Source: Changpingibacter yushuensis
Lineage (GTDB): Bacteria > Actinomycetota > Actinomycetes > Actinomycetales > Actinomycetaceae
DNA length: 64,000 nucleotides
Direction of reading: 5' to 3'
NCBI RefSeq assembly: GCF_014041995.1
Contig: NZ_CP059492.1
Coordinates: 744,001-808,000, forward strand
Below the pieces are notes generated by a model that was given only the letters and a program-made list of their open reading frames with translations, did no database searches and had not been told where the DNA came from. A program made the position numbers and the translations under genes. Numbering within the stretch: the first letter of the stretch is position 1; each line of letters starts with the position of its first letter. Positions 7,422 to 58,939 of the stretch are shown here, in pieces.

Positions 7422-7431
7422 GAGGCACGCA

Positions 7432-38595: not shown

Positions 38596-38777
38596 TGGAT
38601 ATGTAATGGCGTGGCTGGGCCAAGAATGCTGGTAGTGCGAATGAGCGCTGACTGTGCGAATGTAATTGGCTCAGTTTCACGATGTGGACGCCAGTTGAGC
38701 AGGTGGCGTCCAATAGTTGGCCAGTCTCACGTTTGTGCGGGCAGAAATGTGAACCGTCAGGCCGCTATCCTCTACAT

Positions 38778-41410: not shown

Positions 41411-41617
41411 ATGAGAGAGGCGGAGACCCGGCTGCTCGGAGCGGCGGAGGTTGCGGACAGGCTCGGCGTCTGCCGCACCAAGGCCTACGGGATCATCAGG
41501 GACCTCAACGGGGAGATGCAGAGGCGCGGGTGCAGGGTCATCGCCGGCCGCGTGAGCAACGAGATCTTCGAGGAAGCGTATTTCAAGCCGAAGGGAGGCA
41601 GCCGCCATGACCGTTAA
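41411..41617 (+). CDS. Excisionase-like helix-turn-helix protein
   Basis: 68 residues with an AGGAGGA site 4 nt ahead of the ATG. The central LLGAAEVADRLGVCRTKAYGIIRDLNGEMQ is a MerR/excisionase-type HTH, as in recombination directionality factors. Its stop overlaps the integrase start by 11 nt. It is likely the excisionase working with the integrase, under control of the Xre repressor. Confidence 0.82.
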   Translation: MREAETRLLGAAEVADRLGVCRTKAYGIIRDLNGEMQRRGCRVIAGRVSNEIFEEAYFKPKGGSRHDR

Positions 41618-42680
41618 GCAGGCGAAGAACGGGAGCTGGTTCACCCAGTTCCGCTGCAGGAACAAGTTCGGCGAGGAGGTCCACAAGTGCAAGCGTGGCT
41701 TTGACACGCCGGAAGAGGCTCAAGCCTGGGAGGACGATTTCATCGCCTCTGCCGGATGCACCATGGCGATGGCCTTCGAGCAGTTCTATGAGGTGTACAA
41801 GGCCGACGTGATGCCGCGCATCCGCGAGCACACGTGGCGCAACAAGGAGTACCTCATCAAGTCGAAGATCATGCCCCACTTCAAGAACTGCCGCATGAGC
41901 GAGATCCAGAGCATCGATATTGTCCGCTGGCAGAACGACCTCATGGACGGGAGCAACAACAAGGGCAAGGGCTACACGCAGACGTACCTGCGGACCGTGA
42001 ACAACCAGCTTTCCGCCATCCTCAACCATGCTGCGCGCTACTACGGGCTCCATCCCAACCCGACGGTGCGCACCATGAAGATGGGCGGCAAGGAGACCTC
42101 CGAGATGCAGTTCTGGACCAAGGACGACTACCTCAGGTTCGCAGACCAGATGATGGAGAAGCCACGGTCGTTCCTGATCTTCGAGATCCTGTACTGGACC
42201 GGCATACGCGAGGGCGAGCTGCTGGCTCTCATGCCCTCCGCGTTCGACCTCGAGCGCAAGACCATGCGGATCGACAAGTTCTACCAGCGCTTCGACGGAC
42301 GCGATGTCATCACCGACCCGAAGACGCCCAAGTCGATACGCACCATAAAGCTCTCGAATTTCCTTGTGGACGAGATCTCCGATTACCTCAGGCGGCACCC
42401 CGAGATTGGCCTCAACGACCGGATGTTCCCCGTCACGAAGTACCAGATATCCCGGACCATGAAGACCGGCTGCGAGAAGAGCGGCGTCAAGAAGATCCGC
42501 ATCCACGACCTGCGCCATAGCCACGTGAGTCTGCTCATCGACAAGGGGTTCACCGCGCTGGCCATCGCCGACCGCATGGGGCACGAGACGACCGACATCA
42601 CCTTCCGATACGCCCACCTGTTCCCGACGGTGCAGGAGAACATGGCCAACGTGTTGGACGATGCGAGAGGAGATTTCTGA
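41607..42680 (+). CDS. int: Tyrosine-type site-specific integrase
   Basis: 357 residues. The N-terminal part is an arm-binding domain (KNGSWFTQFRCRNKFGEE). A SAM-like core-binding domain is at about 55-160. The catalytic domain carries Arg in TGIREGEL (near 201), HDLRHSH (His near 300, Arg near 303), GHETTD (His near 325) and Tyr in FRYAH (near 335), so the pentad is intact. It should insert the element at the 3' end of guaA, which ends 1.26 kb upstream. It overlaps the excisionase gene by 11 nt and abuts a MobC-like gene (shared base). Confidence 0.95.
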   Translation: MTVKQAKNGSWFTQFRCRNKFGEEVHKCKRGFDTPEEAQAWEDDFIASAGCTMAMAFEQFYEVYKADVMPRIREHTWRNKEYLIKSKIMPHFKNCRMSEIQSIDIVRWQNDLMDGSNNKGKGYTQTYLRTVNNQLSAILNHAARYYGLHPNPTVRTMKMGGKETSEMQFWTKDDYLRFADQMMEKPRSFLIFEILYWTGIREGELLALMPSAFDLERKTMRIDKFYQRFDGRDVITDPKTPKSIRTIKLSNFLVDEISDYLRRHPEIGLNDRMFPVTKYQISRTMKTGCEKSGVKKIRIHDLRHSHVSLLIDKGFTALAIADRMGHETTDITFRYAHLFPTVQENMANVLDDARGDF

Positions 42681-43214: not shown

Positions 43215-44048
43215 TCATCCAGAGAAAGGCAGCTGAATTCCACCATTTGAGAAGAATTCGATAATCTGCGCAACTGCGGCAGCGAACTGGGTACCACCAC
43301 TTATGCCATTTAGGAATCCAACGAAGCTTTTAACAACTCCGCGTTTAGGTGCTCCATTTTCGACTTGTACCCGAATGGTCTCCACGTTATCCCTCAAATC
43401 TTCGAGGGTCTCTTTATTATCCAATTCTGCTGTTGCAGCAGCCAAAAGGGCGTCGAGCAAGGCGTTAAGGTCGCTAGCGTTTATGCCATTCGTCTGCGTT
43501 GAGTTAACTGTAGAACCGCCTATTGCTTGGTTGAGCTGCATATTCTGAACCGGTCCGTTTATATTTGTCGTTGCGGTTTCGCCGTTATCTAGGCCCATTT
43601 CGATTCCCTTTATGGTCAGAAAGCTTCCTATGTTAGTGATGAGACGCCTGACAACCTTCTCCAGAAAACCTTTGTACATGTCGGCATATTTGTTCCCATG
43701 AGCATAACCATAGAAGAAACTGCTGCGTCCACATATGTTTTGAGCGACAACCTCTTTGAGTATGAGGTAGACTTCTGCGCTTTCTTCCTCGGGGACGGTG
43801 CTGAAGCTTACAAACATCGTGCCAAAGTCCTTCGCTACTGCACTGACATCTTCAGCAGCATCCAGTCCATCTGGTGTGTGGTTCGCAACGCAATCATCAA
43901 GATACTTCTTTATCTCTGTTTCTGCCTCTATGCGGTCAAGGAATCTCTTGAAGGGCAAAGGCGATTCTTCCCAGTTTGATTGCATGAGCCTGTTCGATTC
44001 TTGGTTGAACAGATGTAACGTCTTCTTGAAGTTTGTCTTATCAGTCAT
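43215..44048 (-). CDS. Uncharacterised protein downstream of BREX (277 residues)
   Basis: I do not recognise a family. The first 165 residues are helical and charged. Residues about 158-205 are Asn/Thr-rich and low complexity (ATTNINGPVQNMQLNQ, then GGSTVNSTQTNG). This is the kind of linker seen in several defence-associated proteins of unknown function. The C-terminus (about 225-277) is Gly/Phe/Ala-rich and ends FFSNGGIQLPFSG. It overlaps the zinc-ribbon gene before it (ATGA-type overlap) and shares the direction of the BREX operon. It may be an accessory factor or an independent two-gene module. Base composition is lower in GC than the BREX genes. Confidence 0.75.
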   Translation of the reverse strand: MTDKTNFKKTLHLFNQESNRLMQSNWEESPLPFKRFLDRIEAETEIKKYLDDCVANHTPDGLDAAEDVSAVAKDFGTMFVSFSTVPEEESAEVYLILKEVVAQNICGRSSFFYGYAHGNKYADMYKGFLEKVVRRLITNIGSFLTIKGIEMGLDNGETATTNINGPVQNMQLNQAIGGSTVNSTQTNGINASDLNALLDALLAAATAELDNKETLEDLRDNVETIRVQVENGAPKRGVVKSFVGFLNGISGGTQFAAAVAQIIEFFSNGGIQLPFSG

Positions 44049-44499
44049 TAAAGTTACTCACCCCGCACAATGGACAGACGAACATTGACATAGAAAGAAG
44101 CCGTGAGACTTTTGACTGCCTCCCACAATGCTTGCATGTAGTGATTGCAAGAGCGTCGATTGAAGGCCGCAAGACCGGTTCATCATCAGGCTTTGGAGAC
44201 TTCCCGACCTTGAACGAAACAGGTTTGCCCTTGGTTTTCCGTTCAAGCTCCTTCATTTCCTTGTGCAACATTGAGAAGGCTTGGTTCTTTGCGATAACCA
44301 CGGCGAGCTCCAAGACATCGTCGGTGATGTAATTGTCTGAGGCGATGCCGCAAGCAGGGCAGCAAATCTCCGCAACATCGTCGGACTCATAGTCGCTCGG
44401 TCTCAGTTTGAAGAGCTCGCTGCATTGGGGGCACTGCAGCAGTACATAACCTTCGTCATCGCAAGGTATTTCCACAGTGAAGCTAAGATCGTCAGCCAT
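44041..44499 (-). CDS. Zinc-ribbon protein downstream of BREX
   Basis: 152 residues with four Cys pairs: C at DD-EGYVLLQCPQC, CCPAC near 54, TCKHC near 120 and CPLC near 142. These could form two zinc ribbons. No catalytic domain is visible. It is 8 nt after the 70-residue gene and overlaps the 277-residue gene, so the three form one transcription unit with the end of BREX. It may bind nucleic acid or a partner protein. Function unknown. Confidence 0.75.
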   Translation of the reverse strand: MADDLSFTVEIPCDDEGYVLLQCPQCSELFKLRPSDYESDDVAEICCPACGIASDNYITDDVLELAVVIAKNQAFSMLHKEMKELERKTKGKPVSFKVGKSPKPDDEPVLRPSIDALAITTCKHCGRQSKVSRLLSMSMFVCPLCGVSNFND

Positions 44500-44730: not shown

Positions 44731-46902
44731 TTACATTCCCAATGCCTTTCGGGCAGCAGCTATGACGTCTCCGTCTTGGTAGAAATCGGGGCTCACGCTG
44801 CTCGCCAACTCCATGGGAACGTCTTGCAAATCACGAATCGCGCTGAATGGAAGCAGGATACGTTTTGCTCCGGCGTTCTTTGCAACCCTCAGGATGTCTT
44901 CCAGGCCCTTCAGCTCGTCCATGGAGCCGGAGAGGCGTACTATGCCAGGGATGACCGTGGAAGCCGCTACAGGGCGATTGCAGGCGGCTGAGCACAGGCC
45001 GACGAACTCTGCCAGACTCACCTCGTCGCTCGGTCCCTTTGCCTGCAGGTCGTTCACGAACAGCAGATAGTCCTTCTGACGCATGTGCATACCAGCGGCG
45101 ACGCGGTCGCCGTTGTTCTCGAAGCAACGCCAAGCTGCCTCAATGCTCTCCTTGGCTGCGCGGTTGCTGCCGATGCCTTCGTTTTCGAACCGGAACGAGC
45201 CGGCCACGGCCTTGTTCTCCAGCTTGTACACAGCATATTCGTCATTCACACTACGGCCCACGGCAAAAACATGACCGGGCTGCAACGGAGCCTCCGGCAC
45301 AAGCGTGTTCTCGGATTGCTCAGGGACGAAGATGATGCGCGCATCTGCGGGGTTCTCGACATCGACATAGCCCAGGTTCACGTCCATGAACTCCACGCCA
45401 GCCATGATTTTCAGCTGTTCCTTGACGCGCCGCCTTCCCTCGACCGCATAGTCAAGAATCATTCGCGCGTCCTCCTTGCTCATGTCCTCGTCTGGGAAAA
45501 TGAGCTTCATGAGGCCGCTGAACGTCTTGCGCACTCCTATCTCATCGCGCGTGTTGAAATCGCTGGTCAGTCTGAAGAAGTCGTCGATGTGGTGGGTGTA
45601 GTCGCGCTTGCGCATCTCTTTGCAGAACTCGCTCAGGCAGTCGGTGATCAGCCCGTAATGTTCAGTGAGCAAGTCGCTGCGCATCTTCGGAACCTCCCAG
45701 CCGGGAAGGTAGCAGTGGATGCGATCGAAGAACGCGGAGTCATTGTTGAATTCAGGAGGGAACGGATCGAACAGGTGCGTTGTCTTGAGAATGTTCTGCG
45801 CACTGTCGTTGATATTACCCTCGAACACCATTGAAGCATCGCCGGTAAATGACTCGCGACCACGTGCATAGGTGCCACCCGCCATGTAGCCTTTGAGTAT
45901 CTGCACGGCGTTCGCATCTTTGAAATGCATGCCCGCAACTTCGTCGAAGGTGACGCAATCCCAGTTGCCCACGAGACCGGTGCGTTCCATGCTCGTGGCG
46001 CGTCTGACGCTTGCATTCAGACGACCGAACAGGTTGGCTGTCGTGGTCTGCCCTCCGGATAGAAGGATCGCATACGGGCTCACTTCATTGTAGACATGGC
46101 TTTTGCCCGTGCCGCGAGGACCGAGCTCGCACATGTTGTAGTTGCGCTCGATGAGCGGGACCATCCGCTCTAGGAAATGGAGCTTCGTCCTCAAATCCAA
46201 CCCTGCTGGTTCATAACCCACGCTGCGGAGAAGCAGGTCTATCCATTCTTCCGTTGAGAAACTCGGCCGTTGGCCGATGATCGAGTCGAGATCCAGCCGA
46301 GGCATCTGGATGGGAGTCAGGTTGGCGACCTTGAACGGATTGTCTTCTGGACCTGCGTTCTTTTTCGGTGCCTGGCGAGGCTTCTTCTGATCGCCGAAGA
46401 CGTCAGCCAGTTCATCTTCCAGCTCATCCTCAAGACGGAAGTACTCCATCTGGAGGATGCACCACATCCCACCGGAAAGCATCTTGGGATATTCGCGCAC
46501 GTATTCGTCGGGCATGACCACGGGATCGATCGCGAGATTCGAGAAAGTCGCCACGTGGATGTCGCGGTACTCGTCTACCTTGGCGGTCACCTTGTCGATG
46601 ATCGTGTAGGTGCGCAGGTCGCGGATCTTCGACTTGATGCGCTCCGATTCGTCGGGGCGTACGTAGTTCTGAGCCAAGATGCGCCGGATGCGGTCGAGCC
46701 CTTGCTCGACCGATTCGCCGTCGTCGGTGGAACAGTACATGCCCAGGAGGTACTCAAGCACGAACGTGGGCACGTTTGCCCCACGCTTCATCAGGGCAGT
46801 CAGGTCTTTGCGCACGATCTTGCCGGGGAATGCTTCCAAGACCTTGCGGTCGAGGCCGTCTGTCTCGAGAGTGGGCACCACGTTGTTCTGGGTTTCTTCC
46901 AT
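44731..46902 (-). CDS. brxL: BREX protein BrxL (AAA+ / Lon-like)
   Basis: 723 residues, the expected BrxL length for type 1 BREX. The AAA+ Walker A GPRGTGKSHVYNEVSP is near residues 258-273 and Walker B VTFDEVAGMHF near 318-328. The C-terminal Lon-like domain has GSMDELKGLEDILRVAKNAGAKRILLPFSAIRDL, which resembles the Lon protease C-domain. The position of the Lon catalytic Lys (GLKEK) reads GLED, so protease activity is not obvious. It is the last canonical BREX gene, 10 nt after pglZ, transcribed leftward. BrxL acts with PglZ in phage exclusion. Confidence 0.95.
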   Translation of the reverse strand: MEETQNNVVPTLETDGLDRKVLEAFPGKIVRKDLTALMKRGANVPTFVLEYLLGMYCSTDDGESVEQGLDRIRRILAQNYVRPDESERIKSKIRDLRTYTIIDKVTAKVDEYRDIHVATFSNLAIDPVVMPDEYVREYPKMLSGGMWCILQMEYFRLEDELEDELADVFGDQKKPRQAPKKNAGPEDNPFKVANLTPIQMPRLDLDSIIGQRPSFSTEEWIDLLLRSVGYEPAGLDLRTKLHFLERMVPLIERNYNMCELGPRGTGKSHVYNEVSPYAILLSGGQTTTANLFGRLNASVRRATSMERTGLVGNWDCVTFDEVAGMHFKDANAVQILKGYMAGGTYARGRESFTGDASMVFEGNINDSAQNILKTTHLFDPFPPEFNNDSAFFDRIHCYLPGWEVPKMRSDLLTEHYGLITDCLSEFCKEMRKRDYTHHIDDFFRLTSDFNTRDEIGVRKTFSGLMKLIFPDEDMSKEDARMILDYAVEGRRRVKEQLKIMAGVEFMDVNLGYVDVENPADARIIFVPEQSENTLVPEAPLQPGHVFAVGRSVNDEYAVYKLENKAVAGSFRFENEGIGSNRAAKESIEAAWRCFENNGDRVAAGMHMRQKDYLLFVNDLQAKGPSDEVSLAEFVGLCSAACNRPVAASTVIPGIVRLSGSMDELKGLEDILRVAKNAGAKRILLPFSAIRDLQDVPMELASSVSPDFYQDGDVIAAARKALGM

Positions 46903-46911
46903 ATCAGTCTC

Positions 46912-49548
46912 CTACAGCCCGAAGTCGATCGTCGGAGTGAACGCCATGTCGATGGTGAATTCTTCTTTCCAGACGATGCCGTCCGTCTCCTTGTCTCTGC
47001 AGACAAGGTAATAGCGCTCGCCGGGCGGGTAATCCACACCGGCCTTGAGCGTGAACATCGGCCGTGACACGCGGGCACGCTCGTCGGTCGTCGTCATGTC
47101 GGCGTGCGTCTTCTGCACATCGGTCACAGGGTTTCCGGACCCGTCGGTCAGGCAGAGCTCGTACTCGGCTGGAAGCACCTTGCCCGAGACCGGTTCCTTC
47201 TGGAACAAGTCGACATGGAACATCGAGCTTGTGATGCGCCGCTTGGTGGACACGAGCGACATCATCGCCTTTTCCTGCTCAACCCGTGCCTTCGACTTGA
47301 CGTTGCGGTTGCGCAGCTCGATGACAGGCACGCATACCTCCTGCAAGCTCACGCCGCCGTGCGCGTAGTTCTTATTGCCCGATGCGCTCTTCATGCGGAT
47401 GCACTCGCGAAGAGCGAGGCCGTAGTATTCGCCGCCGTGAATGTCTCGCAAATCCATCTTGACGAACATCAGATTGTCGATGTTCTCCCGTGAGAGTATG
47501 TGCCTGCGATGCAGCTGCACATCGTTTCCGCCGACGTCAGCCTTCGACACCTTGTCCTGCTCTTTCAACGGTCCGCGCGTGTAGATGAATCCATGATCGG
47601 CAGTGACGATGACGCGATTGATCTTCAGGTCGTTGATGGCGATCTTACAGAGCGCAACTAGCTCGTCGACCGTATCGCCGCAAGCCCTGAAGACTTCGTG
47701 CTCGAGCTTCGGCTTCTCGCCGGTCGAGTCGATCTTGTCCTGATAGACGTACACGAGCGGGGCATCACCCACAAGTTCCTTGCGCGCTGCACGGTTTCCG
47801 GCACGCAGGTTCTCAGAGAGCACCGCTCTCGCACCTGCTACCTTTGCTTGCAGTATCGCCTCCCTCTCGGGAGTGGTCCTGGTCGGTTTACCGTCGACGA
47901 AGACCTGGCCGTCATCCCACGAGTAGGAGATCTCTCCGTGCGGGAGAAGCGCCGCCATCCCGAACTCCGTCACCGAGGGAAACGATGATTGGAACGAATC
48001 GAGGGATACGGTGCTCTTCGTCTCCTGCTCAAGCCGGCGGGAGAGCTCGCGACCGACCTCGTAGCGCATGCCGTCTGCGATGATGACAAGCGTATGCTTG
48101 TATTCCTTAGTATCGTGCGACGGGTGTCTCTGGAAGAAATCACGTTGGATCTCGATGCCTTTCGCGAAGCCGCATTCGGCCCAGTCGGGTTCGGCGCAGT
48201 TGATCCAGCAGCCGTTGACGTTGGGCAGAAACCAGTTCACATACACGTTCTCGACCCGTTCGGCCAGCCTCTCGGCGGCGTCACGTAGCGAGTCGGGGGT
48301 GTCTTCGGTGTTGAGCAGGCAGGCGTCGAGCGCCGTGCAGAACCCGCGGTATGCCGAATCCATGGCGCACCAGTCCGTCGTATATGCCTTCCAGACATCT
48401 GCGGGCTTGGTCGCGTGGAATCCCTGCGGGTGATCTCGGTAGAACCCCTCGGAATCGGCAGCAGCAGCGAGAAGGTCGTAGTAGCTCTCCACGCGCTTGT
48501 ACCATTTCAGGTCCTTGCGTTTCTGACGGGTGCTGAGAGCTTCTGAGCTCCTGTCCGAACCGTCGGCCAGACTCGACATCAGGCTGGTCAGAACCGCCTC
48601 GTTAACGCATGGGAAAACATCGGTGTCGATGAGGGCGGAGACTTTCGCGTCTGTGAGTCGTTCGGGGATGCTGAGTTCGGTTTCAACGGCTCGGGCGATC
48701 TCATAGAGCGTCTCACAGCTCGCCTGGTCGCCCATCCAGTCGCGCACGATGCTCATGCAGAAGCGGGCGTAGGGCTTGGCGATATGCGCATCGTAGCCCG
48801 AGAGCAGCTCCTCGGGTAAGGTGCAGGACGCCGCGGAGAGCAGCAGATGCTCGGCCAACTTTATCTCCGACGATAGGTCGTCCTCATAACCGAGACGCTT
48901 CTTCAGAATCGACGACAACGCGCTCAGTGCGCCGAATCGCTCGAAATCAGCGAGCACGGAATCCGGCCCCGAGTCATGCAGAGCGCATAGATATGCCCTC
49001 GCGATGTCTTCCATTTTTGCAGTAGGGGCTTTCAGGATGACCGAGACTACACCGATTGCCACGTCGACGGGTGTGTTCGTCTCGGGCATGCGTCTGAGGT
49101 ATGCCGTCCTTCGGTCTGCCGCGCCGAAGAACTTCTCGAACTGTGCGACTGCATCTCTCGCGGCGTTGCTTGCATTGATGTCACCGAGCAGCATGGATGC
49201 CTTGTCCGCCTGGAAATGCTCGGCGGTAAGCTCGATGTCAGCCAACCAGTTTCCTTCGAGCCCGCCCTCTGAGAAGTCGCGCGGTTTGCGTGTGTAGACG
49301 AGGAAGTCATCCGATGGCTTGCCTCTCAGAACCTCTCTCTTGAGCTCGAATTGAGACCCAACCTCAGCCTTTGCGAAGGTGAGCGGTCGCACGAGTTCGC
49401 ATCCTATACCGTTCTCCCCCAGCCGGTCGAAGTCCTCCTCGAAGGACCCGGCAACATCGTGCCAGAATACGACGCGCCTGATTTCGTCATCGGATAGGGG
49501 CTGTGTCAGGGCATCCTGTATGAGTTGGATTGCATCGAGGTCTGCCAT
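46912..49548 (-). CDS. pglZ: BREX protein PglZ (alkaline phosphatase-superfamily)
   Basis: 878 residues, matching type 1 PglZ in length. The alkaline phosphatase core shows IIADGMRYEVGRELSRRLE near residues 487-505 and VIVTADHGFIYTRG near 646-659. These carry the metal-binding Asp/His residues of the family. The N-terminal 350 residues are helical. It lies 3 nt from the Fic gene and 9 nt before brxL. PglZ is an essential, possibly phosphodiesterase-type, subunit of BREX whose exact reaction is not known. Confidence 0.95.
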   Translation of the reverse strand: MADLDAIQLIQDALTQPLSDDEIRRVVFWHDVAGSFEEDFDRLGENGIGCELVRPLTFAKAEVGSQFELKREVLRGKPSDDFLVYTRKPRDFSEGGLEGNWLADIELTAEHFQADKASMLLGDINASNAARDAVAQFEKFFGAADRRTAYLRRMPETNTPVDVAIGVVSVILKAPTAKMEDIARAYLCALHDSGPDSVLADFERFGALSALSSILKKRLGYEDDLSSEIKLAEHLLLSAASCTLPEELLSGYDAHIAKPYARFCMSIVRDWMGDQASCETLYEIARAVETELSIPERLTDAKVSALIDTDVFPCVNEAVLTSLMSSLADGSDRSSEALSTRQKRKDLKWYKRVESYYDLLAAAADSEGFYRDHPQGFHATKPADVWKAYTTDWCAMDSAYRGFCTALDACLLNTEDTPDSLRDAAERLAERVENVYVNWFLPNVNGCWINCAEPDWAECGFAKGIEIQRDFFQRHPSHDTKEYKHTLVIIADGMRYEVGRELSRRLEQETKSTVSLDSFQSSFPSVTEFGMAALLPHGEISYSWDDGQVFVDGKPTRTTPEREAILQAKVAGARAVLSENLRAGNRAARKELVGDAPLVYVYQDKIDSTGEKPKLEHEVFRACGDTVDELVALCKIAINDLKINRVIVTADHGFIYTRGPLKEQDKVSKADVGGNDVQLHRRHILSRENIDNLMFVKMDLRDIHGGEYYGLALRECIRMKSASGNKNYAHGGVSLQEVCVPVIELRNRNVKSKARVEQEKAMMSLVSTKRRITSSMFHVDLFQKEPVSGKVLPAEYELCLTDGSGNPVTDVQKTHADMTTTDERARVSRPMFTLKAGVDYPPGERYYLVCRDKETDGIVWKEEFTIDMAFTPTIDFGL

Positions 49549-49551
49549 CGA

Positions 49552-50646
49552 TCAGTTCTCCTCCCCGGCTCCATGACGCTTGATCGAGTACCTTCTGCCG
49601 CTGCTCTTGCCCTGAGCCTGCACCAGCCCGAGCTCTGTCAGGTGCCCGTTGATGCGTTGTAGCGAGCGAGATGGTATCTGCAACTCGGAGGATATCTCCG
49701 CAGGACGCGACGGCCCGTGTTCGTGTAGGTATGCCAGCACCTGGCGGTCGGGTTCGGACAGATCATAGAGTACGTCAGCCAACTCCGGCCAACTCCGGCC
49801 AAGTTCAGCCAAGATGTCTGGAGTATGTTTGCTTACCAGTGCGGCGTCCGGCACGCTTACCTCTGCAGTATGCTCGCTCGCGGAGCCGACCTCCTCGAGT
49901 GCACCCACGAAGAGCCCAAGCATGAACTCCACGAACCCCGAGGAGTCCGCTTGCGCGTCCGCGGTGCCGAGCGCGTCGTAGTAACCTTGCTGGTTCTTCT
50001 GGATGAGCTCCTCGACGGGCAGCCAGTAGAACACGGGGTTCCACCGCCCCAGAAGCGCCGTGTGCCAGAATCTGCCCATGCGGCCGTTCCCGTCCTGGAA
50101 GGGGTGGATGAACTCGAACTCGTAATGGAACACCGCGCTCTTGACCAGCGGAGGGAGCGTCGATTCTCCGTACCATGCGATGAGGTCGCTTATCTGGCCT
50201 GCGACGAACTCCGCCGGAGGGACCATGTGCACGAGCTGGTCACCGTCGAAGATGCCGACTCCTTGAGTTCGGAACATGCCCGCTTCCTCGGCGAGGTCGT
50301 CCATCATGGCGTGGTGGACCGCAAGAAGGTCCTTCACACTCATCGGATCGGTATCAACGAGGAGGTCGTATGCGTCAAAGGCGTTCTTCACCTCGCAGAT
50401 CTCACGTGGGTCGCCCAGCACGCGCTTTCCGTCCAGAATCGCTGTAACCTGCCCCAGCGTGAGCGTGTTGTGCTCGATCGCCAGTGACGAGTGAACGGTG
50501 CGTATGCGGTTCTGACGGCGCAGGTGGACGGAATGGTCGTCCTGCATCATCACCGATGCCCTGCCCAGCTCGTATGAAGCGTGCGATACCAGGTCGACGA
50601 TCTCGTCGCTCATTGTGAAAGGGGGCTTGTATTCTGATTCGCTCAC
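49552..50646 (-). CDS. Fic-domain protein (AMPylase type) inside the BREX operon
   Basis: 364 residues. The active-site motif is HPFQDGNGRMGR at residues 181-192, which retains the catalytic His. An N-terminal inhibitory-helix motif, SSLAIEHNTLTL at 53-64, suggests a self-inhibited class II Fic enzyme. The C-terminal 60 residues are a winged helix (DRQVLAYLHEHGPSRPAEISSELQIPSRSLQRINGHL). Such proteins AMPylate targets such as gyrase, or regulate partners. It sits between pglX (9 nt) and pglZ (3 nt), so it is co-transcribed. It is not part of the standard BREX set and is probably an accessory or guard gene. Confidence 0.92.
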   Translation of the reverse strand: MSESEYKPPFTMSDEIVDLVSHASYELGRASVMMQDDHSVHLRRQNRIRTVHSSLAIEHNTLTLGQVTAILDGKRVLGDPREICEVKNAFDAYDLLVDTDPMSVKDLLAVHHAMMDDLAEEAGMFRTQGVGIFDGDQLVHMVPPAEFVAGQISDLIAWYGESTLPPLVKSAVFHYEFEFIHPFQDGNGRMGRFWHTALLGRWNPVFYWLPVEELIQKNQQGYYDALGTADAQADSSGFVEFMLGLFVGALEEVGSASEHTAEVSVPDAALVSKHTPDILAELGRSWPELADVLYDLSEPDRQVLAYLHEHGPSRPAEISSELQIPSRSLQRINGHLTELGLVQAQGKSSGRRYSIKRHGAGEEN

Positions 50647-50655
50647 GGCATCCCC

Positions 50656-53600
50656 TTACTTTATCTTGGCCAAGGCGTCTTGGAACAGGGCGTAGTTGTG
50701 ATTCACACCGTCGTCGAGGTCGATTTCAATCATCTGGTCGGCCAGGTGGTGAACCTTCTCCTCGTATGCGTTGGTTTCTGCAAGTTGCTCCGATATCTTC
50801 TTGTGCTCTTTACGCAGCGTTGCTTGTTCACGTTTGTCCGCTGTCTGCATTGCGTCATTAATGCGTTCCAGCTGAGTGCGATAGCGCTCCTGTTGTGGAT
50901 GCACGTACTCCGTACGAAGGCGAGCCAACAGATCGGGAGTGTATCGATGCATGTAGAACAATGCCCGGAATCCGCCCTTCTTACCGGAATCGAAAAGCCA
51001 GTAGATGGGCCTTTTCCCCGCGCTCGGTACGCTATAGGTCTTGCAGTGATCCGCAAAGAAATCATTGCGAAAATACGCGCGAATAATCTGACGCGGCGTC
51101 CCTTCGCCACCAAGCGCGTCTGCAATGAATTTCAGGTTTTCTTCCAGATGCTCATCGCCATAGGCAGCACGCAGGAAGTCGACGAACAACCCCATGGCAT
51201 CATCATGGAAGTACTCGATGTCCGTGAGGGGGATGATCCCGTCTGCATCGGGTTTGAATGTGGGATCCGGTACCTGTTCCAAATACTCGTCCAGCCCATC
51301 GCCTTGGTTTGCAAGCACGAGCCCCGGCCTGTCGAGCGAGTAGCGCCCAATGATGCAGCCGACTGCGTAGCTGATGAGTGATTTCACGTCGCGGACAAGG
51401 TCAGCGCGACGTACGGATACCTTGTCATCGGGGACCTCGATGGGGACCTCGTCCTCCATGTGGTAGATGCGTGCGAAAATGCGATTGAGCTCCTCCTCGT
51501 TAGCCTTGAGCGTATCGAAGCGCTCTTGGCATTCGGTTGACCAAGTGTCGAAAGCCTTGGAAACGAGTACTCCGCGCAAAAGCGGATGTCGCTCGAAATC
51601 CCATGAGATTTCGAATGAATCCCAATCGACATGGGCAATATCGATGCAATACTCAGTTAGATTATTAATCACCGCTGATTCATCTTTAACAAATGGCAAG
51701 GCAAGAAGGTTTCCGCTTTTAAAATGGATAGTGGGATTTAATACATTGCTCCATCTTTGAACAAGCGAAGAATTAAAATATGCTAACGCATATTGATAAC
51801 TAACGTTTCTCGGCAGAGCTGCATTTGCAGATGCGTCAAAAATAAATCCGCTCTTATACCACCGGAAAGAAATCCCCCCGGTACAAATATCTCCCCATGA
51901 AATCTGAGGCTTAAAATAATAATCCGTTCCTACAACGCGCCCACCACTAGCATCACGAGTTGCGTATCTAATATCTTCCCCATTATTGTAGAAATTCACG
52001 ACATATTGAAGATTACCGTACCATTTCCTATAATTACCTGCCTTGTTGTAGGGGAACCAACGACATTTCTTGTCGCACGTTTCACTAACTGCTTTGTATC
52101 CAAACCCGATGTCTGACCAGTCAACTTCATACCATAATCTCAAAAACTGCTCATTATTTGATGTGCCCATTCCACAACGAGCATCTATATCTTTAGAAAC
52201 CTTACTGTTGTTAGAAAAAGCAGCGACTTCATTTTCGGATAACCAATACGCAATTGGCCAGCCAGGGATGGACTTGAAGTTTTCAGCATCAGTATGGTAA
52301 AACCAACCACAATCGGGGTTCTGGATGGCTTCGCGCAACTCAGCGGCTTTCTCTGCTTCATTGGAACCGTCAACGAGTCTGAAATATGCACCTTTACCCT
52401 GTGCCTTGTCATTGGTAAACACCGTTGCCGTCGTGGAAACGACCTCACCACCGATGGCATCAAACGCATGTGCTCCCAGGTGGGCCATCGAAACAAGGTC
52501 ATAACTTCCGATAATCTTCTTACGCATTTTCTCGTAGGAGCTCAAAAACATCCACGATTGCATGGTTATCTCTGCTACATAGCCGTTGCGCCGAGTGAAC
52601 TCAAGTCCACGTTTGATGAAGCAAGTACACAGGTCGTTGTTTTCTTCAGGGTATTGCTCCTTAACCCATTCCGACGCCCATGGTTCCAGTGCGCTCTTTT
52701 GTAGATATGGCGGATTAGCAATTACAATGTCGTATTTCGTCGCTAAAGGTTCGAGCTCGGCGAGGGCTCTACTGATCAGCTCCTTTGCCTTGAAACCGAA
52801 AATGCTGGTCTCTTCCTCCAAGCTAGCGGCGGTGGCACGTAAGGCGGCCATGTCCTCTGCTGTTGGTGTCAGCAGACTCCCAACCTCATCGAGGTGGAAA
52901 AGCGCTTCCAGCAACTCGGTCTTTTCGAGCAAAAATGATTTGCCTAGCTTGTCCTGCTTATGGTGCGCGCCAGCGACAGCTCGACGCTGCTCTTCATCAA
53001 ACTCCACCTTTTCAAGCACTGTGATACGTGGCCTCACGCCTCGACGTAGGAACCGGCCATCGTACTCGCATGCCCTCATCGTCAACGCGAAGCTCGCCAT
53101 AGCAGCGGCGCGTGGATCGATCTCGATGCCGGTCAGATTCTTCTCCAGCACCAGCTGTGGGATATCGCGTCGCGCATAGCCACGCTCCTCGTACATGGCT
53201 GCCAGCAGGTCGAACGCGTACACCAGGATGTGACCCGAACCGCAAGCAGGGTCGAGGACCGTTATCTCCTCGGGATCCTCGATTTTCAGGAACTCGCCCG
53301 CGTCACCCTCCGGCACGAGATAGTAGTCCATCTCGGATGCCAGCCCGCTCTGGGGATTGTTGAGCATCCAGAGCCTGCCGAGGGAGTTCTCGGTTAGATA
53401 GCGCACGATCCACTCCGGCGTGAACAGCTGCGTAGCGCAGGGTATATCCTCGGCAGAAGCCTTGCGCTTGGAGACGAAGTAGTCATCTTTCTTCTCGGAA
53501 ACGTAGTATTGGTACATCCAGCCTACGATCTGCACGCCCTCGTGCCAGTCGCTTTCGAGGATGTCCGTCACGATACGATTGACGACACCGCCCTCGCGCA

Positions 53601-54132
53601 GCAACCCGTCAGGGAGCAGCAGCTCCATCGCAGCGCCCACTTTTTCGAACACGCCGGGCATGCAATCGGCGAGCTCGGCGCATTGCGCCAAAAACAGGCA
53701 TCGGAACGTCGCTTCGTCATCGCCTCCTTGGACAAGCTCGGCTGCGCGCGCTCGGTCCAACCCCTCGATATCGACCGATAATGCCTCTGCAAGGACCTGT
53801 GGCTTGAAGGAGCCGTCGTTGGCGGAAAGTATCCGGGTGCGGGATGGCAGGAGGTCGTTTACCTCCATGAACCTGATGGCCATGATGCGGTTGAACCACG
53901 TGTAGGCGGCTCGCTCGACTATCTGTTCGTATCCCTCTTCTCGAATGGTGCCCAGGAGCTCCTTGCGCTGCGCTTTTTCTGCGCCGGTGAGAACAAGCCC
54001 GTTCACCGCGTCCGCATCCGCAGGGTTCATGGGGTTCTCGGAGATGTCGTATATCGCGCATCTGCGCTCCACCTCGGCCATAAGTTCCCTGCGTGCCCAG
54101 ATGCAGTAGGATTTGATTGCGGAGTCGTTCAT
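50656..54132 (-). CDS. pglX: BREX adenine-specific DNA methyltransferase PglX (BrxX)
   Basis: 1158 residues. The SAM-binding motif DPACGSGH is near residues 293-300 and the catalytic NPPY near 470-473, giving the N6-adenine methylase order. It marks host DNA and is needed for phage exclusion in type 1 BREX. Residues about 560-830 (51640-52450), where target-recognition would lie, are encoded by strikingly AT-rich DNA, while both flanks are GC-rich; this suggests a swapped recognition module. It starts 1 nt after brxC. Confidence 0.95.
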   Translation of the reverse strand: MNDSAIKSYCIWARRELMAEVERRCAIYDISENPMNPADADAVNGLVLTGAEKAQRKELLGTIREEGYEQIVERAAYTWFNRIMAIRFMEVNDLLPSRTRILSANDGSFKPQVLAEALSVDIEGLDRARAAELVQGGDDEATFRCLFLAQCAELADCMPGVFEKVGAAMELLLPDGLLREGGVVNRIVTDILESDWHEGVQIVGWMYQYYVSEKKDDYFVSKRKASAEDIPCATQLFTPEWIVRYLTENSLGRLWMLNNPQSGLASEMDYYLVPEGDAGEFLKIEDPEEITVLDPACGSGHILVYAFDLLAAMYEERGYARRDIPQLVLEKNLTGIEIDPRAAAMASFALTMRACEYDGRFLRRGVRPRITVLEKVEFDEEQRRAVAGAHHKQDKLGKSFLLEKTELLEALFHLDEVGSLLTPTAEDMAALRATAASLEEETSIFGFKAKELISRALAELEPLATKYDIVIANPPYLQKSALEPWASEWVKEQYPEENNDLCTCFIKRGLEFTRRNGYVAEITMQSWMFLSSYEKMRKKIIGSYDLVSMAHLGAHAFDAIGGEVVSTTATVFTNDKAQGKGAYFRLVDGSNEAEKAAELREAIQNPDCGWFYHTDAENFKSIPGWPIAYWLSENEVAAFSNNSKVSKDIDARCGMGTSNNEQFLRLWYEVDWSDIGFGYKAVSETCDKKCRWFPYNKAGNYRKWYGNLQYVVNFYNNGEDIRYATRDASGGRVVGTDYYFKPQISWGDICTGGISFRWYKSGFIFDASANAALPRNVSYQYALAYFNSSLVQRWSNVLNPTIHFKSGNLLALPFVKDESAVINNLTEYCIDIAHVDWDSFEISWDFERHPLLRGVLVSKAFDTWSTECQERFDTLKANEEELNRIFARIYHMEDEVPIEVPDDKVSVRRADLVRDVKSLISYAVGCIIGRYSLDRPGLVLANQGDGLDEYLEQVPDPTFKPDADGIIPLTDIEYFHDDAMGLFVDFLRAAYGDEHLEENLKFIADALGGEGTPRQIIRAYFRNDFFADHCKTYSVPSAGKRPIYWLFDSGKKGGFRALFYMHRYTPDLLARLRTEYVHPQQERYRTQLERINDAMQTADKREQATLRKEHKKISEQLAETNAYEEKVHHLADQMIEIDLDDGVNHNYALFQDALAKIK

Positions 54133-54133
54133 G

Positions 54134-57100
54134 CTAGTCTCCCAGTCTTACTGCGTCGCTATCTTTGAGGGCATCCATCAGGGCATTGCGAAGGCCTTCG
54201 ACGTAGGCATCAACCTCTTCTGCGGTTCGCATGGTTTTCGTCGGGCATACCCTGCTACGGTGAAGCACCTTCGTTCTGGGCTTTGGCTCTGCGGGGATTG
54301 CGCTGCCTGTACTGCCTTTTTTCTCTTCCTTCTTGCACCGTGCTTCGGCGATGGCGTTGTCGACTTTCGCGAACTGTTGGTTGGTCCATGTCGCGAGCTG
54401 GCTCACCTGCGCATCCAGCTGGCTGCAGCTCTCCGTACGGTGTGCGGAGTCGCGCTTCGCGATGGCAGCCTGCTTGACCTGCGAGACCACATAGTTTGCA
54501 ACGCCCTCGAACTCGCCGCACTCGTCTTCTGCATAGCGTTCGATCTGCTCAACGGCGTCATCGATGCTACGAAGCAGGTCATCACGCTTGACGCTTGCTG
54601 CAGCTGAAAGCTCTTTGGTGACGGTGTTGTTGAGGCTGTTGAGGTCCTTGATGTGCCCATAGGGTTCGTCCATGGCAAGGATTTCGCAGATTTGGGAGAT
54701 AGACTCCTGGGCTTCGTCGCTGCCTTCGATGTAGATACCCTCGGTGGCGAGCGACTCGATGAGTTTCCTTGAGTCGTCGTAGAGCCGCACCTGCGTGGCG
54801 AAAAAGCCGTGGATCTTCTCAAGATCCTCGGCAAGGTCGAGCAGGCTGTCGCCAGTCTGCTTGTTGGCAAGCGACATGCAGAACAGAACAGGATCGGCCG
54901 CGTCGGAAAGCAGATTGTCGATGAGCTTGCGGCCGTCGGCTACGATCTGCTTTCCAGGGTAGGGGTTGTGCGAGTACCACTTCGCCAGCATCTCCTGGCA
55001 TCCATCGGAAGAATTTTGGAGGTGCTCCTTTGCGAACACGACGAGGCCGTCCTCGTCTCCGGGGACTTGGTTGGTATCGGCGAAGTCCTTCATGAGACGC
55101 TGAACGGACGCGAGAGTGGTCGCGTCGATGGCCTCACGCTTCTTGACCTGCGCCTTGTCAGCGTCCCTGCGCAGATGCTGCATGATGGTGTGGACGTCAC
55201 CGCTGTCGAGCTGCTTCCCGCCGACGGACATTGCGATGCGCTGTCTGTTCAGCAGCTGCGCCATGACGGCCGCGATGTCGATCTCACGCCAGCCATAGGG
55301 CGCTTTCTGGTACTTGCGCTGAAGGTCTCCCATGTTGGTCGCCTGGTGGCTGTACGCCTGGGCGTCGAGGTAGAGCATGACCTCGTTCATCGCCCTCCAG
55401 TTGGGCTCATGACCGTCCGTGTCGATCTGGGCGCCCGTCTCGCCGCGATACATCGCATACAGGTCGGAGTCGGTGTTCGCCGGCAGGTCGATGTAGTCTG
55501 CCTTGGTGTAGGTGCTCGTCACGAGCTCGTCGAGTACGGCGTCGAGCCTCTTGTCCGCTGCCTGTTCCTTCACGGTCAGGCTGCGTCCGTCGACCGCGAG
55601 CCTGCCGTGCGCGATGGCGTCCTCGAGGGATTTCTTCGCGGCTTTCTCGTTCTCGCGAGCCTCCTCGCGCTTGCGCTTGACGATGTCCTGCTTGGAGGGT
55701 GACCATTGCGAGGTGGTGCTCATGCGTACGTACTTCTCCACGCGGCACGACATGTCGAGAAGATCGTAGTAGTCGCCTTCTTCCAGACCCACCAGCGCCT
55801 GCCCGGTGGACTTGAACGCGAACTCCGGCTCGGAAAGTCGCGACCACTCGTGCGCGTAGGTGATGACGTTCAGCTTCATGCCGCCCTGGTCCTTGCCATG
55901 CACGCTGTCGTCGACGTATCGGTCGAACGGGAAGTCGTTCTGTCCCACGCGGTGCTTGGTTGTGGTGTAGATTCCGTCGAAGAGGATGCGCTTTATCTTG
56001 TCGGTGACCTCGCTGGCATCGATCTCGACTTTGGATATCTCGTCTGCGACATCCTGTTCCTCGCTGGTGAGGAAGTTGTACTTGTCGCCGTTGCGGGCGA
56101 CCTTGTTCTCGCGCACCAGGCGCTCGAGCGATTCCAGGACCTGCTTGCGCAGGGCGATCTTGTCGACGTCGACCGAATCGATCATGAGGTTCGCGATATT
56201 GTTCACGTCAGGGGTGATGTCGCCGATGTAGCGGATGAGATAGAGCGCCTTGATGACGCGCACGTCGTACTCGAAGAGCCCGTTCCCATCGTCGGCGGCA
56301 TCCTGGCAGCGGCTTATCACCTGCCGGATGCCGTAGTCGAGCGATGTCTCGATGGTGTCGTAGAAACGCCAGAACGGTACGAGCACGCCGGGTTGCTCGT
56401 CCTGCACGCGCTGTGCTGACTCCTGGAACGCCGATATCATCGAACGCTCGCCGCTTGACATGTGCTTTCCGGAGAAGCCGTGCTCGCGCGTCTTGGTGAA
56501 GACGTCGGGCAGGATGCGGAACTGGTAGCCCACGAACGGGTAGCTCTCCACGTAATCGCGCGGACCGGCATAGCCGAACAGGTCGCTTGTCGAGTCGTCG
56601 AAGCTGAAGAGGTTCTTCAGAACCGTCGCCTGCTTCTGGTACTCCGTTTCCAGAAGCGCCGTAGCCTCGTCGGTCTTTGCAAGCACGCGCTCCTTGATGA
56701 TCTCGTCCACGTCGCTCGAGGACAGCGATAGACGCGTGTCGAAGCGACCCTGGATCTTGGAGAAATCCATACCGACGATATCGGTGATCGAATCGATGGC
56801 CTGCTGGCTTGTGACCAGCACCCACACGTCGCCGCCGCATTGGGTGCCAAGGTCCTCGGCCATCGTTTGCATGTCCAGCGTGAGGCTGTTGTCAGAGCCG
56901 ATGAACTGGCCGATCTCGTCTGCCAGGAACACGAGACGGAAGCTTCCGAGCTCTGCCTTCTTCTTGTCTATGTATGCCTTCACCTGCCTGGAGAATGTGT
57001 CGGAGGACACCACATCGGTCTCAGTGCCATCGAACCAGTGCTGGGCGGCGTCGCGACTCATGCCCAGTGCCCGCATGAGTGTCTCGACCATGTCGTCTTC

Positions 57101-57715
57101 GTAGAACGACCAGCTGTCACGGTTCCCGAGCCAGTCGAGTCCGCTGATGTCCTCGAATGCCTCGCGGAACTCTCGTGTCTTGTCCTTGGAATCGATGAAC
57201 GCCTCAAGCCTGGCGAGTTTCAGATCCTCGCCGTAGAAGCCCTGGTTCTCATAGAAGACGCGTTGGAAGGAGCGCATGAGCGCGGTTTTGGCACTCTCGC
57301 CTTCCTTCCACTTGCCGCCTTTAGAGTCCACGTTGAAGAGAATCGTCTCGGTGGGCACCGAGGCTGCGCGCCTCATGCGTGCATAGACCATCTCGTCGTC
57401 GATCTTGCCATCGAAGTAGTCGACCGCGCGCTTGCCCTTCACTTCCGGGTTGGAGAGGAGGTAGCTCAGCATCTTGAGGAAGTGGGATTTGCCAGACCCG
57501 AAGAAGCCGCTGATCCATACGCCCGTCTTGCTCGTAGGTTCGTCGAGCGATCGCTCGTAGTTTCGGAAGAATGTGGAGAAGTGTCCTTGCAGTTCCTTGG
57601 CCACGACGTATTCTTTGAGTTCCTGCTCCACGAGGTTCTCGTCGATGTCGCCGACCTTGACCACGCCGTTGATGTTCCTGTTGATGTCATGCTCGAACAT
57701 GTTCTGGATATGCAT
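54134..57715 (-). CDS. brxC: BREX ATPase BrxC
   Basis: 1193 residues, typical for BrxC/PglY-type P-loop ATPases. Walker A GFFGSGKSH is at residues 70-78 and Walker B LVFLADEIGQF near 260-270. The N-terminal MFEHDINRNINGVVK matches BrxC openings. The C-terminal third is helical with repeated Asp/Lys/Glu and may be coiled coil. It follows brxB by 18 nt and precedes pglX by 1 nt. BrxC supplies ATP-driven function in the BREX complex. Confidence 0.95.
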   Translation of the reverse strand: MHIQNMFEHDINRNINGVVKVGDIDENLVEQELKEYVVAKELQGHFSTFFRNYERSLDEPTSKTGVWISGFFGSGKSHFLKMLSYLLSNPEVKGKRAVDYFDGKIDDEMVYARMRRAASVPTETILFNVDSKGGKWKEGESAKTALMRSFQRVFYENQGFYGEDLKLARLEAFIDSKDKTREFREAFEDISGLDWLGNRDSWSFYEDDMVETLMRALGMSRDAAQHWFDGTETDVVSSDTFSRQVKAYIDKKKAELGSFRLVFLADEIGQFIGSDNSLTLDMQTMAEDLGTQCGGDVWVLVTSQQAIDSITDIVGMDFSKIQGRFDTRLSLSSSDVDEIIKERVLAKTDEATALLETEYQKQATVLKNLFSFDDSTSDLFGYAGPRDYVESYPFVGYQFRILPDVFTKTREHGFSGKHMSSGERSMISAFQESAQRVQDEQPGVLVPFWRFYDTIETSLDYGIRQVISRCQDAADDGNGLFEYDVRVIKALYLIRYIGDITPDVNNIANLMIDSVDVDKIALRKQVLESLERLVRENKVARNGDKYNFLTSEEQDVADEISKVEIDASEVTDKIKRILFDGIYTTTKHRVGQNDFPFDRYVDDSVHGKDQGGMKLNVITYAHEWSRLSEPEFAFKSTGQALVGLEEGDYYDLLDMSCRVEKYVRMSTTSQWSPSKQDIVKRKREEARENEKAAKKSLEDAIAHGRLAVDGRSLTVKEQAADKRLDAVLDELVTSTYTKADYIDLPANTDSDLYAMYRGETGAQIDTDGHEPNWRAMNEVMLYLDAQAYSHQATNMGDLQRKYQKAPYGWREIDIAAVMAQLLNRQRIAMSVGGKQLDSGDVHTIMQHLRRDADKAQVKKREAIDATTLASVQRLMKDFADTNQVPGDEDGLVVFAKEHLQNSSDGCQEMLAKWYSHNPYPGKQIVADGRKLIDNLLSDAADPVLFCMSLANKQTGDSLLDLAEDLEKIHGFFATQVRLYDDSRKLIESLATEGIYIEGSDEAQESISQICEILAMDEPYGHIKDLNSLNNTVTKELSAAASVKRDDLLRSIDDAVEQIERYAEDECGEFEGVANYVVSQVKQAAIAKRDSAHRTESCSQLDAQVSQLATWTNQQFAKVDNAIAEARCKKEEKKGSTGSAIPAEPKPRTKVLHRSRVCPTKTMRTAEEVDAYVEGLRNALMDALKDSDAVRLGD

Positions 57716-57734: not shown

Positions 57735-58331
57735 CTAGATCAGGTCGAATGCCCGGTAGTAGTTGCCGTCGCTCAGCCGTCCGAAGAGCGACAACGCCTG
57801 TCCGTTGAACCGTCCCGGGTAGGCGACTATCACGGGAATCTCCTCGAACAGGTACTGGATATTGTCGAGGATGTTGTGCGCTCTCATGAACGGGTACACC
57901 TCGCCGATGCCGGTGATAAGGAGCACATCGCCGGGTTGGTTGGGCTTATCGGCAATCTTTCTCGCGAAAGCCTCTGGACTTGCAACAGTAGATAGCTGCC
58001 TGAGCATCTGCGCCTGGCCCTTCTTCGCCTCCATCTTCGGAATGGCGGCCGCGATGCGCTTCTCGTCGCAGATCGCAAGCAGGATGTCGTAGAGGTTCTT
58101 CTCGCGGATGTTGCATGGCAGCGATGGATCCGCCTTGAGCTTGTCGAAGAAGCGTCGGGCTTTGTTCTTGAGCCTGGGGTCATAGCAGAAGGTGTATATG
58201 CCGACCTCGTTGCCGAGCCCGCGGTTGTGCAGGAAGTCCGCCTGACGCAGGCGTGCCTTACATGCTTCGCAGCGGGCCTCGAACTCGGCGACAGCCTTGT
58301 CGCTCGGCTTGTCGATATAGGTTGCAGGCAT
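57735..58331 (-). CDS. brxB: BREX protein BrxB
   Basis: 198 residues of the DUF1788 family: a helical N-terminus, then QPGDVLLITGIGEVYPFMRAHNILDNI near 132-158 and IPVIVAYPGRFNGQALSLFGRL near 165-186, the family's conserved end. It starts at the base where brxA stops (58331) and ends 18 nt before brxC. Its molecular role is not established beyond being needed in BREX. Confidence 0.92.
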   Translation of the reverse strand: MPATYIDKPSDKAVAEFEARCEACKARLRQADFLHNRGLGNEVGIYTFCYDPRLKNKARRFFDKLKADPSLPCNIREKNLYDILLAICDEKRIAAAIPKMEAKKGQAQMLRQLSTVASPEAFARKIADKPNQPGDVLLITGIGEVYPFMRAHNILDNIQYLFEEIPVIVAYPGRFNGQALSLFGRLSDGNYYRAFDLI

Positions 58332-58939
58332 TAAAGAGCCTCCCTTATTCCGAATGAAGCAAGGGCAGCGAAGTCCTCGCGCTCGCGCAGGATGTCCTCG
58401 AAATCAGGATCAAGAAGTACTTGCTGCAGATGCCCGTCCTTGGTGAGGACGTCGGCCTCAAGCAGGCATCTGCGCAGCACCGACTTGAGCTTCGTCACGG
58501 TAGAGTCCGCAATGGTCGCGAAGTTCTCGTACTCCGCCATTAGCTCCGTGAAGTAAGCATTCATGTCCGTACGCGTGAAGCTGTAATCTAACTCTGCGTA
58601 ATGACGCGCGATCTCGGTGGTCATGAAGTGTCGCATCAGCGGGTATGCCGACATCATCGCATAGAGGTTCACCTGTGCAGCCACCCCAGGCATGCCGTCG
58701 GAGATGATTCGCGTGAGACGTTCATCGGCCAGTGCGTCAATGCGCTTGTTGCAAACTCCGGCAATGTTGCGAAGCATGCGCTCGGTCGGGTATTGGAATA
58801 GATTCTCCGTTTGAGCCTTCTCGATGACTTCCTTTTCGCTTGCGCCGTCTAGACGCATACGAGCCACTATTCTCGTTTCCTTGAGGAGCCATTGTTCACG
58901 GGTCATGACTCCGCCGGACAGCTTTTTATTCTTCGCCAT
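58331..58939 (-). CDS. brxA: BREX protein BrxA
   Basis: 202 residues of the DUF1819 family, which is a DNA-binding small protein in BREX. The opening LKETRIVARMRLDGASEKEVIEKA and the later RHYAELDYSFTRTDMNAYFTEL are typical. The gene overlaps the RHH gene ahead by 14 nt. BrxA is the first of the canonical BREX genes. Confidence 0.93.
   Translation of the reverse strand: MAKNKKLSGGVMTREQWLLKETRIVARMRLDGASEKEVIEKAQTENLFQYPTERMLRNIAGVCNKRIDALADERLTRIISDGMPGVAAQVNLYAMMSAYPLMRHFMTTEIARHYAELDYSFTRTDMNAYFTELMAEYENFATIADSTVTKLKSVLRRCLLEADVLTKDGHLQQVLLDPDFEDILREREDFAALASFGIREAL

Follow-up and report, generated by a model that had tools for sequence, protein, structure and literature searches.

A class II-type Fic gene in the pglX–pglZ slot of a BREX type 1 operon, a possible back-up effector

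In the 64,000-nt stretch of DNA analysed here (the window), a gene for a Fic protein is lodged between pglX and pglZ of a BREX type 1 operon, at the junction where, in the surveyed BREX-1 loci, extra genes are most often inserted. Judged by its motifs, the protein is probably an AMP-transferase and probably self-inhibited, of class II type. The combined reading, namely a self-inhibited class II-type AMP-transferase plugged into this slot as a back-up effector, is given an even chance. The enzyme family is known and so is this type of role; the novelty lies in meeting them in BREX, for which no report of Fic or AMPylation was found in the open-access literature (preprints and most subscription papers being outside the scope of the search). 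An earlier, sequence-only reading of this DNA was aware of no described role for Fic in BREX, and within that literature its remark holds. Two papers were set aside: PMC6863613, where BREX, pglX and Fic occur together, is irrelevant, a Fic/YhfG pair being listed apart from the plasmid BREX locus in the available portions of the text, and PMC13335696, in the portions available, lists SoFic and reports no BREX.

The BREX type 1 gene set of the window is complete and in order, as established by profile matches, and is encoded on the (−) strand. It comprises brxA (58331..58939; PF08849), the first core gene of the cluster, brxB (57735..58331; PF08747), brxC (54134..57715; NF033441, 1093 bits), the adenine methyltransferase gene pglX (50656..54132; 1158 aa; NF033452, 1315 bits, and PADLOC PglX), pglZ type A (46912..49548; 878 aa; TIGR02687, 462 bits, and PF08665) and the Lon-like brxL (44731..46902; TIGR02653, 826 bits, PF20442 and PF13337). 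The fic gene (49552..50646, (−) strand; GTG start, 364 aa, from its open reading frame and translation) has pglX directly upstream and pglZ directly downstream, with gaps of 9 and 3 nt, respectively, between the ends of these co-directional reading frames. The placement, frame, strand and spacing given in the sequence-only reading were all correct. At both junctions, the sequence holds a Shine–Dalgarno-like motif embedded in the preceding gene: AAGGGGA overlaps the pglX stop codon ahead of fic (50647..50670, (−) strand), and GGAGGAG lies in the last codons at the 3′ end of fic, ahead of pglZ (49549..49572, (−) strand). Consensus scans for a promoter or terminator of its own found fic no richer than shuffled sequence. 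The gene is packed into the BREX operon as an in-operon, co-directional member. Its base composition does not look foreign: with a GC content of 0.606 and a GC3 of 0.762, close to the values of brxC and pglZ, fic is no compositional stranger. As to island ends, there is no tRNA gene in the window and no repeat pair resembling island boundaries. An integrase-like open reading frame, recognized by eye (41607–42680, (+) strand), flanks the BREX cluster and is adjoined by a guaA-like gene (38682–40349), also recognized by eye.

Assignment to the Fic family relies on the Pfam profile PF02661 (76 bits for a cut-off of 24) and on two motifs. The Fic motif HPFQDGNGRMGR occupies residues 181–192 of the translated protein, and its defining residues (H181, P, F, D185, G, N, G, R189, G191 and R192) are invariant in the 73 aligned subfamily members, window included, which bears out the earlier claim of an intact HPFxDGNGRxxR active site. 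The textbook inhibitory motif of class II Fic proteins is (S/T)xxxE(G/N), ending in Gly or Asn and situated N-terminal to the Fic core. In the window protein, the corresponding motif SSLAIEHN (residues 53–60) also precedes the core; its Glu58 is present in all 73 members, and the residue that follows is His, as against Asn in 42, His in 18, Gln in 12 and Ser in 1 of the 73 when all are counted. That the inhibitory motif is intact, as had been claimed, is therefore correct for the glutamate and only loosely so for the last residue. Because the glutamate never varies and His at the next position recurs within the subfamily, the inhibitory helix of the window protein looks functional despite its terminal His.

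In the AlphaFold2 model of the protein (35-row alignment, mean pLDDT of 87.7), a helix formed by residues 40–57 runs up to the inhibitory motif, and the C-terminal part (about residues 294–355) is folded as a winged helix. This fold, together with a Pfam match to TrmB that is barely over threshold (26.4 bits for a cut-off of 25.6), agrees with the earlier claim that a winged helix follows the Fic core; MarR_2 is under threshold (22.5 bits for a cut-off of 27). The closest solved structure is PDB 4rgl, the Fic protein Dde_2494 of Desulfovibrio, which carries the motifs SLAIEN and HPFxDGNGRMGR. Its sequence match to the window protein is far beyond chance (E 3.8e-85), and VIA-align superposes the two with a Z of 34.5 over 315 residues (rmsd of 8.6 across both domains); however, the inhibitory motif of 4rgl ends in Asn while that of the window protein ends in His. 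Matches over fewer residues were obtained with FICD (4u0u; Z 26.4, rmsd 2.4 over 242) and with Shewanella SoFic (3eqx; Z 25.4, rmsd 2.4 over 245), the latter showing about 20% identity to the window protein when the two are aligned by structure. SoFic (Shewanella SO_4266, PDB 3eqx and 3zcn; E. coli Sofic in the available portions of PMC12249575) shares with the window protein an N-terminal inhibitory helix placed before a class II core and a C-terminal domain. The PADLOC SoFic profile PDLC03963 is matched over its full length (E 2.5e-39, residues 10–353 against positions 18–349 of 361), whereas the NCBIfam SoFic equivalog NF046030 gives 47 bits and does not reach its cut-off of 550. The window protein therefore looks SoFic-like in build and is not a SoFic orthologue.

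The occupancy of the pglX–pglZ slot was surveyed in loci sampled with the BREX-1 pglX profile NF033452. Over the cut-off were 16 of the 213 genomes searched in the window's own family (window included), 6 of 394 in its class, 39 of 397 in the Lachnospiraceae family draw, 28 of 391 in the Anaerovoracaceae class draw, 4 of 293 in the Ruminobacter class draw and 5 of 247 in the Bacteroidales class draw; one Collinsella record (L133) was added. Matches below the cut-off, such as those of G125, G189, G617, G618, G1384 and G1447, were left out of the count, and some genomes contributed two loci. From the 107 pglX loci taken, 26 were dropped (contig ends or no PglZ match) and 81 had both pglX and pglZ resolved. 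A slot was considered filled when it held a same-strand open reading frame of at least 90 aa, as found by a simple longest-first caller, so that the counts are approximate. On this basis, the pglX–pglZ slot is filled in 49 of the 81 other resolved loci (35/55 and 14/26 in the two sets), or in 50 of 82 with the window. The corresponding figures for the other junctions are 0/40 for brxA–brxB, 0/60 for brxB–brxC, 12/84 for brxC–pglX and 10/70 for pglZ–brxL. The slot between pglX and pglZ is thus the main insertion slot of BREX-1 in the surveyed loci, and the count turns one odd gene into a testable rule, according to which BREX-1 takes up exchangeable genes mainly at this site.

The contents of the slot are varied. 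Pfam scanning covered 78 slot proteins, window included, in sets of 53 and 25, where one protein may match several families. The set of 53 contains SLFN_AlbA_2 (15), AAA_21 (6), AAA_13 (4), YhcG_C (3), RhuM, SduA_C and Fic (2 each), and TIR_2, YobI and DUF3990 (1 each); PADLOC profiles matched in the same set include AriA (6), AbiLi (5), PDC-S06 (4) and PDC-S02 (3). Defence-type families in the set of 25 are SLFN_AlbA_2 (3) and SduA_C, YhcG_C, AbiEii, AbiH, HEPN and PIN (1 each), and the others include GYF_2 (3), DUF805 (2) and WYL, DUF29, DUF488 and DUF2971 (1 each). AAA_13 is the domain of the PrrC/RloC tRNA nucleases, and DUF3990 has an ADP-ribosyltransferase-like fold; the single slot protein with the latter domain is possibly another protein-modifying effector. 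Some occupants look unlike defence genes (e.g. those with GYF_2, DUF805, DUF29, DUF488 or DUF2971). Since the contents vary in this way and many belong to abortive-infection or defence families, the slot appears as a socket for exchangeable genes, of which Fic is among the rarer occupants.

Several slot proteins have no Pfam match. Four of them, of 278–462 aa and without a match at E 0.001, are candidate new effectors (L226 9418–10407, L176 7937–8851, L179 7975–9363 and L163 9660–10496). In L162 (3280–4513) and L170 (9222–10461), two others are relatives of the candidate defence pair PDC-M14A/PDC-M14B that lies downstream of brxL in the window (43215..44499, (−) strand; PADLOC PDLC04447 and PDLC04453), with identities by tblastn of 43–44% for M14A and 29–31% for M14B. 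The presence of these relatives in the slot makes the pair behind the window brxL look like a second exchangeable BREX module. A further M14A relative lies between brxC and pglX in L199 (15063–15515), so that this candidate module is seen at three different positions across BREX operons.

Fic itself is found in the slot in 1 of the 81 other resolved loci, L148 (genome G795), from the Lachnospiraceae family draw. Its order is pglX–fic–pglZ, with overlaps of 4 nt at the pglX–fic junction and 14 nt at the fic–pglZ junction. The encoded protein belongs to the same subfamily, is 43% identical to the window protein in pairwise alignment and has the motifs HPFMDGNGRTGR and SLAIEQN. A Fic profile of our own matched three slots; two of these, L152 and L197, were rejected as Fic, their proteins being of AlbA_2 type with only the C-terminal winged helix in common. 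The same winged helix is shared with Fic proteins by three AlbA_2-type slot proteins (L113 8482–9963, L152 8248–9678 and L197 8379–8966), and Pfam Fic-like_C is matched by 7 of the 53 slot proteins; it is as if one DNA-binding tail had been swapped among effectors. By a rough estimate, 0.06–0.1 Fic genes would be expected among 77 random slot genes (2–3 Fic genes per genome, with an assumed 2,400 genes), and the single recurrence could be luck and is weak on its own.

The relationship of the two BREX Fic genes was examined in an alignment and tree of 73 rows, made up of 69 of the 80 Fic loci described below (11 proteins outside 300–380 aa were left out) and of the window, L148, L134 and L135. 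The nearest relatives of the L148 protein are encoded by two Lachnospiraceae genes, L047 and L064 (support 100/95). These two and L313, also a relative, lie outside BREX operons, although L047 (G612) is about 19 kb from the BREX-1 pglX of L178, apparently on the same contig and beyond the 10-kb flank examined. One of the 16 other genomes searched in the genus of G795 has a close relative of the L148 gene (74%), with no BREX genes within about 9 kb on either side. An AU test rejects a common clade of the window and L148 proteins (p-AU 2.1e-8), the window row being a long branch. Subject to that caveat, a common origin for the Fic genes of the two BREX loci is rejected by the tree and the AU test, and this, with the L148 relatives outside BREX, indicates that fic probably entered the pglX–pglZ slot twice, independently, from outside.

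Conservation in loci related to the window was checked as well. By PglZ, BrxC and BrxL, the nearest complete locus among the plasmids and the surveyed loci is that of Collinsella (L133), in which the slot is empty, the last pglX piece ending 23 nt before pglZ. Of the 1036 plasmid records matched by a query joining the PglX C-terminus to Fic, none covers at least 80% of it, and no such adjacency was seen.

The wider occurrence of the Fic subfamily was assessed in the best 80 Fic genome loci among the matches listed, with flanks of at most 10 kb (both flanks longer than 3 kb in 57 of the 80). None of these 80 loci has BREX genes in its flanks. In 16 of them, type I restriction genes are found no more than three genes away from fic, and in 13 they are its immediate same-strand neighbours, by an approximate count that rests on profiles seeded from L134. 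Among operon neighbours, HsdM_N (6) and Methylase_S (4) were matched in the 48 upstream proteins and HSDR_N (6) in the 54 downstream proteins, and two Azotobacter plasmids have the orders hsdS–fic–hsdR and hsdS–fic–nuclease–hsdR. The subfamily, whose members are scattered across phyla, thus occupies several genomic contexts, type I restriction operons included. Among 80 Fic loci from viral contigs, one, on an IMG/VR contig (L239), has a brxA-B-C-like set some 6.5 kb beyond its SoFic-like gene, where the locus ends. A PglX search of viral contigs found no relative, and a PglZ search of phage records gave 8 matches with 24–29% identity.

In light of the single occurrence among the 81 other resolved loci, Fic as a strictly conserved BREX partner is ruled out, and the survey of BREX loci that had been proposed as a check gives no support for conservation of the position in related loci. 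The rarity of Fic in the slot, the empty slot of the Collinsella locus and the absence of BREX beside the best-listed relatives speak against Fic as a built-in subunit of BREX or as an enzyme devoted to modifying it. A role as BREX regulator, in which Fic would modify a BREX subunit (e.g. PglX or PglZ) or its winged helix would control the operon, is in keeping with the location between pglX and pglZ, the presence of the winged helix and co-expression as judged by position; however, 80 of the 81 other resolved BREX-1 loci lack Fic in the slot and the same subfamily occurs outside BREX, which makes such a role improbable. Least probable of all, by a little, is a selfish gene with no part in defence, which would act in the manner of a toxin: once inside the operon, it would be retained because cells that lose the locus pay a price. 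Fic proteins do include toxins of toxin–antitoxin pairs (available portions of PMC12249575), and the scatter of relatives across phyla would fit, but the window has a single gene with its own inhibitory helix, leaves no room for a separate antitoxin gene since both fic junctions are shorter than 10 nt, and has many anti-phage families for slot mates.

In the main rival explanation, fic is a SoFic-like defence gene in its own right that came to lie in an expressed defence operon, senses phage by itself and is linked to BREX by co-expression only; this is less probable than the preferred explanation and still a substantial contender. It draws on the 80 best-listed relatives free of BREX genes in the flanks examined, on the full-length match to the PADLOC SoFic defence profile, on the relatives of the L148 gene outside BREX operons (with the reservation already made for L047) and on slot contents that differ from locus to locus. 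By analogy, BrxU, a GmrSD-type enzyme that cuts modified DNA, acts independently of BREX in the BREX locus of E. fergusonii and widens its protection (PMC8565348, available portions); like the window fic, its gene is an extra one embedded in a BREX-1 operon, though between brxC and pglX instead of pglX and pglZ. On the other hand, the tight operon packing of both BREX Fic genes and the strong slot preference suggest more than random lodging, even if co-expression alone could explain both.

The back-up effector reading is favoured because the slot is the main insertion site and many of the genes found in it have established or candidate roles in abortive infection and defence. It also draws on the tight junctions, the second insertion in L148, the subfamily members beside hsd genes and the full-length match to the PADLOC SoFic profile. 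Weighing against it are the rarity of Fic in the slot, the empty Collinsella slot, the lack of BREX genes in the flanks of the 80 best-listed relatives and beside the 74% relative of the L148 gene, the absence of a PglX–Fic adjacency among the plasmid records, and the slot occupants that do not resemble defence genes or have no Pfam match. Of the fail-safe interpretation offered in the sequence-only reading, the part that stands is a probable AMP-transferase in the main slot among defence genes, with one independent recurrence in L148; conservation of fic there in related loci is not supported. According to this scheme, Fic would be made together with BREX and would be kept off by its own inhibitory helix, possibly also by contact with BREX proteins, in the way that PrrC is held by its restriction enzyme. 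Should infection proceed or BREX be neutralised, Fic would be released and would AMPylate a host (or phage) protein, and growth of the infected cell would stop. A more elaborate version makes Fic a guard of BREX that would be silenced through contact with PglX or PglZ, freed when a phage blocks BREX, and would then AMPylate an essential host protein and abort the infection; this version is rather unlikely. If it were true, Fic would do for BREX, by modifying proteins, what PrrC does for type I restriction, and the pglX–pglZ slot would be a regular docking site for interchangeable guards, among them Fic, which hsd operons have as well.

Known systems offer parallels for the back-up effector reading. 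BREX operons carry back-up effectors proposed to step in once the primary effector has been blocked (Rakesh and Krishnan 2026, PMC12839542, available portions), and these resemble the window fic in being extra genes inside or beside the BREX core. The effectors of that catalogue, in the portions available, are nucleases (HNH, HKD, PD-(D/E)XK, TOPRIM/OLD, HEPN, PIN and Schlafen) while the window gene encodes a Fic protein; the terms Fic, Fido and AMPyl- are absent from its main text. A Fic enzyme would thus add protein AMPylation to the repertoire. The anticodon nuclease PrrC is encoded in the type I hsd locus EcoprrI and is latent until released by inhibition of restriction (available portions of PMC12707154 and PMC3506569). 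It is a toxic effector inside a restriction locus, where relatives of the window Fic are likewise found: among their hsd genes, type I restriction operons may harbour prrC or fic. PrrC differs in being a tRNA-cleaving enzyme that its restriction enzyme keeps silent, while the window Fic is a predicted AMP-transferase. Sofic is a toxic anti-phage protein thought to AMPylate unidentified targets (PMC12249575, available portions). In contrast to SoFic, the window fic is embedded in BREX and, as seen above, is too tightly flanked to leave space behind it for a small antitoxin gene like AS1. If the fail-safe reading is true, the operon would offer a simple system for studying how an immune layer is set off by failure of the one before it, and a handle on the signals and targets of class II Fic proteins, a question that is open even for Sofic according to the same portions of PMC12249575.

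Apart from the slot, the survey gave observations on pglX itself. A near relative of the window BREX, L128 (G116), with PglX pieces 60–61% identical, has the C-terminal PglX piece ahead of the N-terminal one; the contig ends there and its slot is unreadable. In the window's family, a split pglX with an inverted pglX fragment is seen in L122, L123, L125, L130 and L132, and in L123 a tyrosine integrase gene (6963–8168, Pfam) lies between the pglX pieces. This arrangement looks like specificity switching by inversion.
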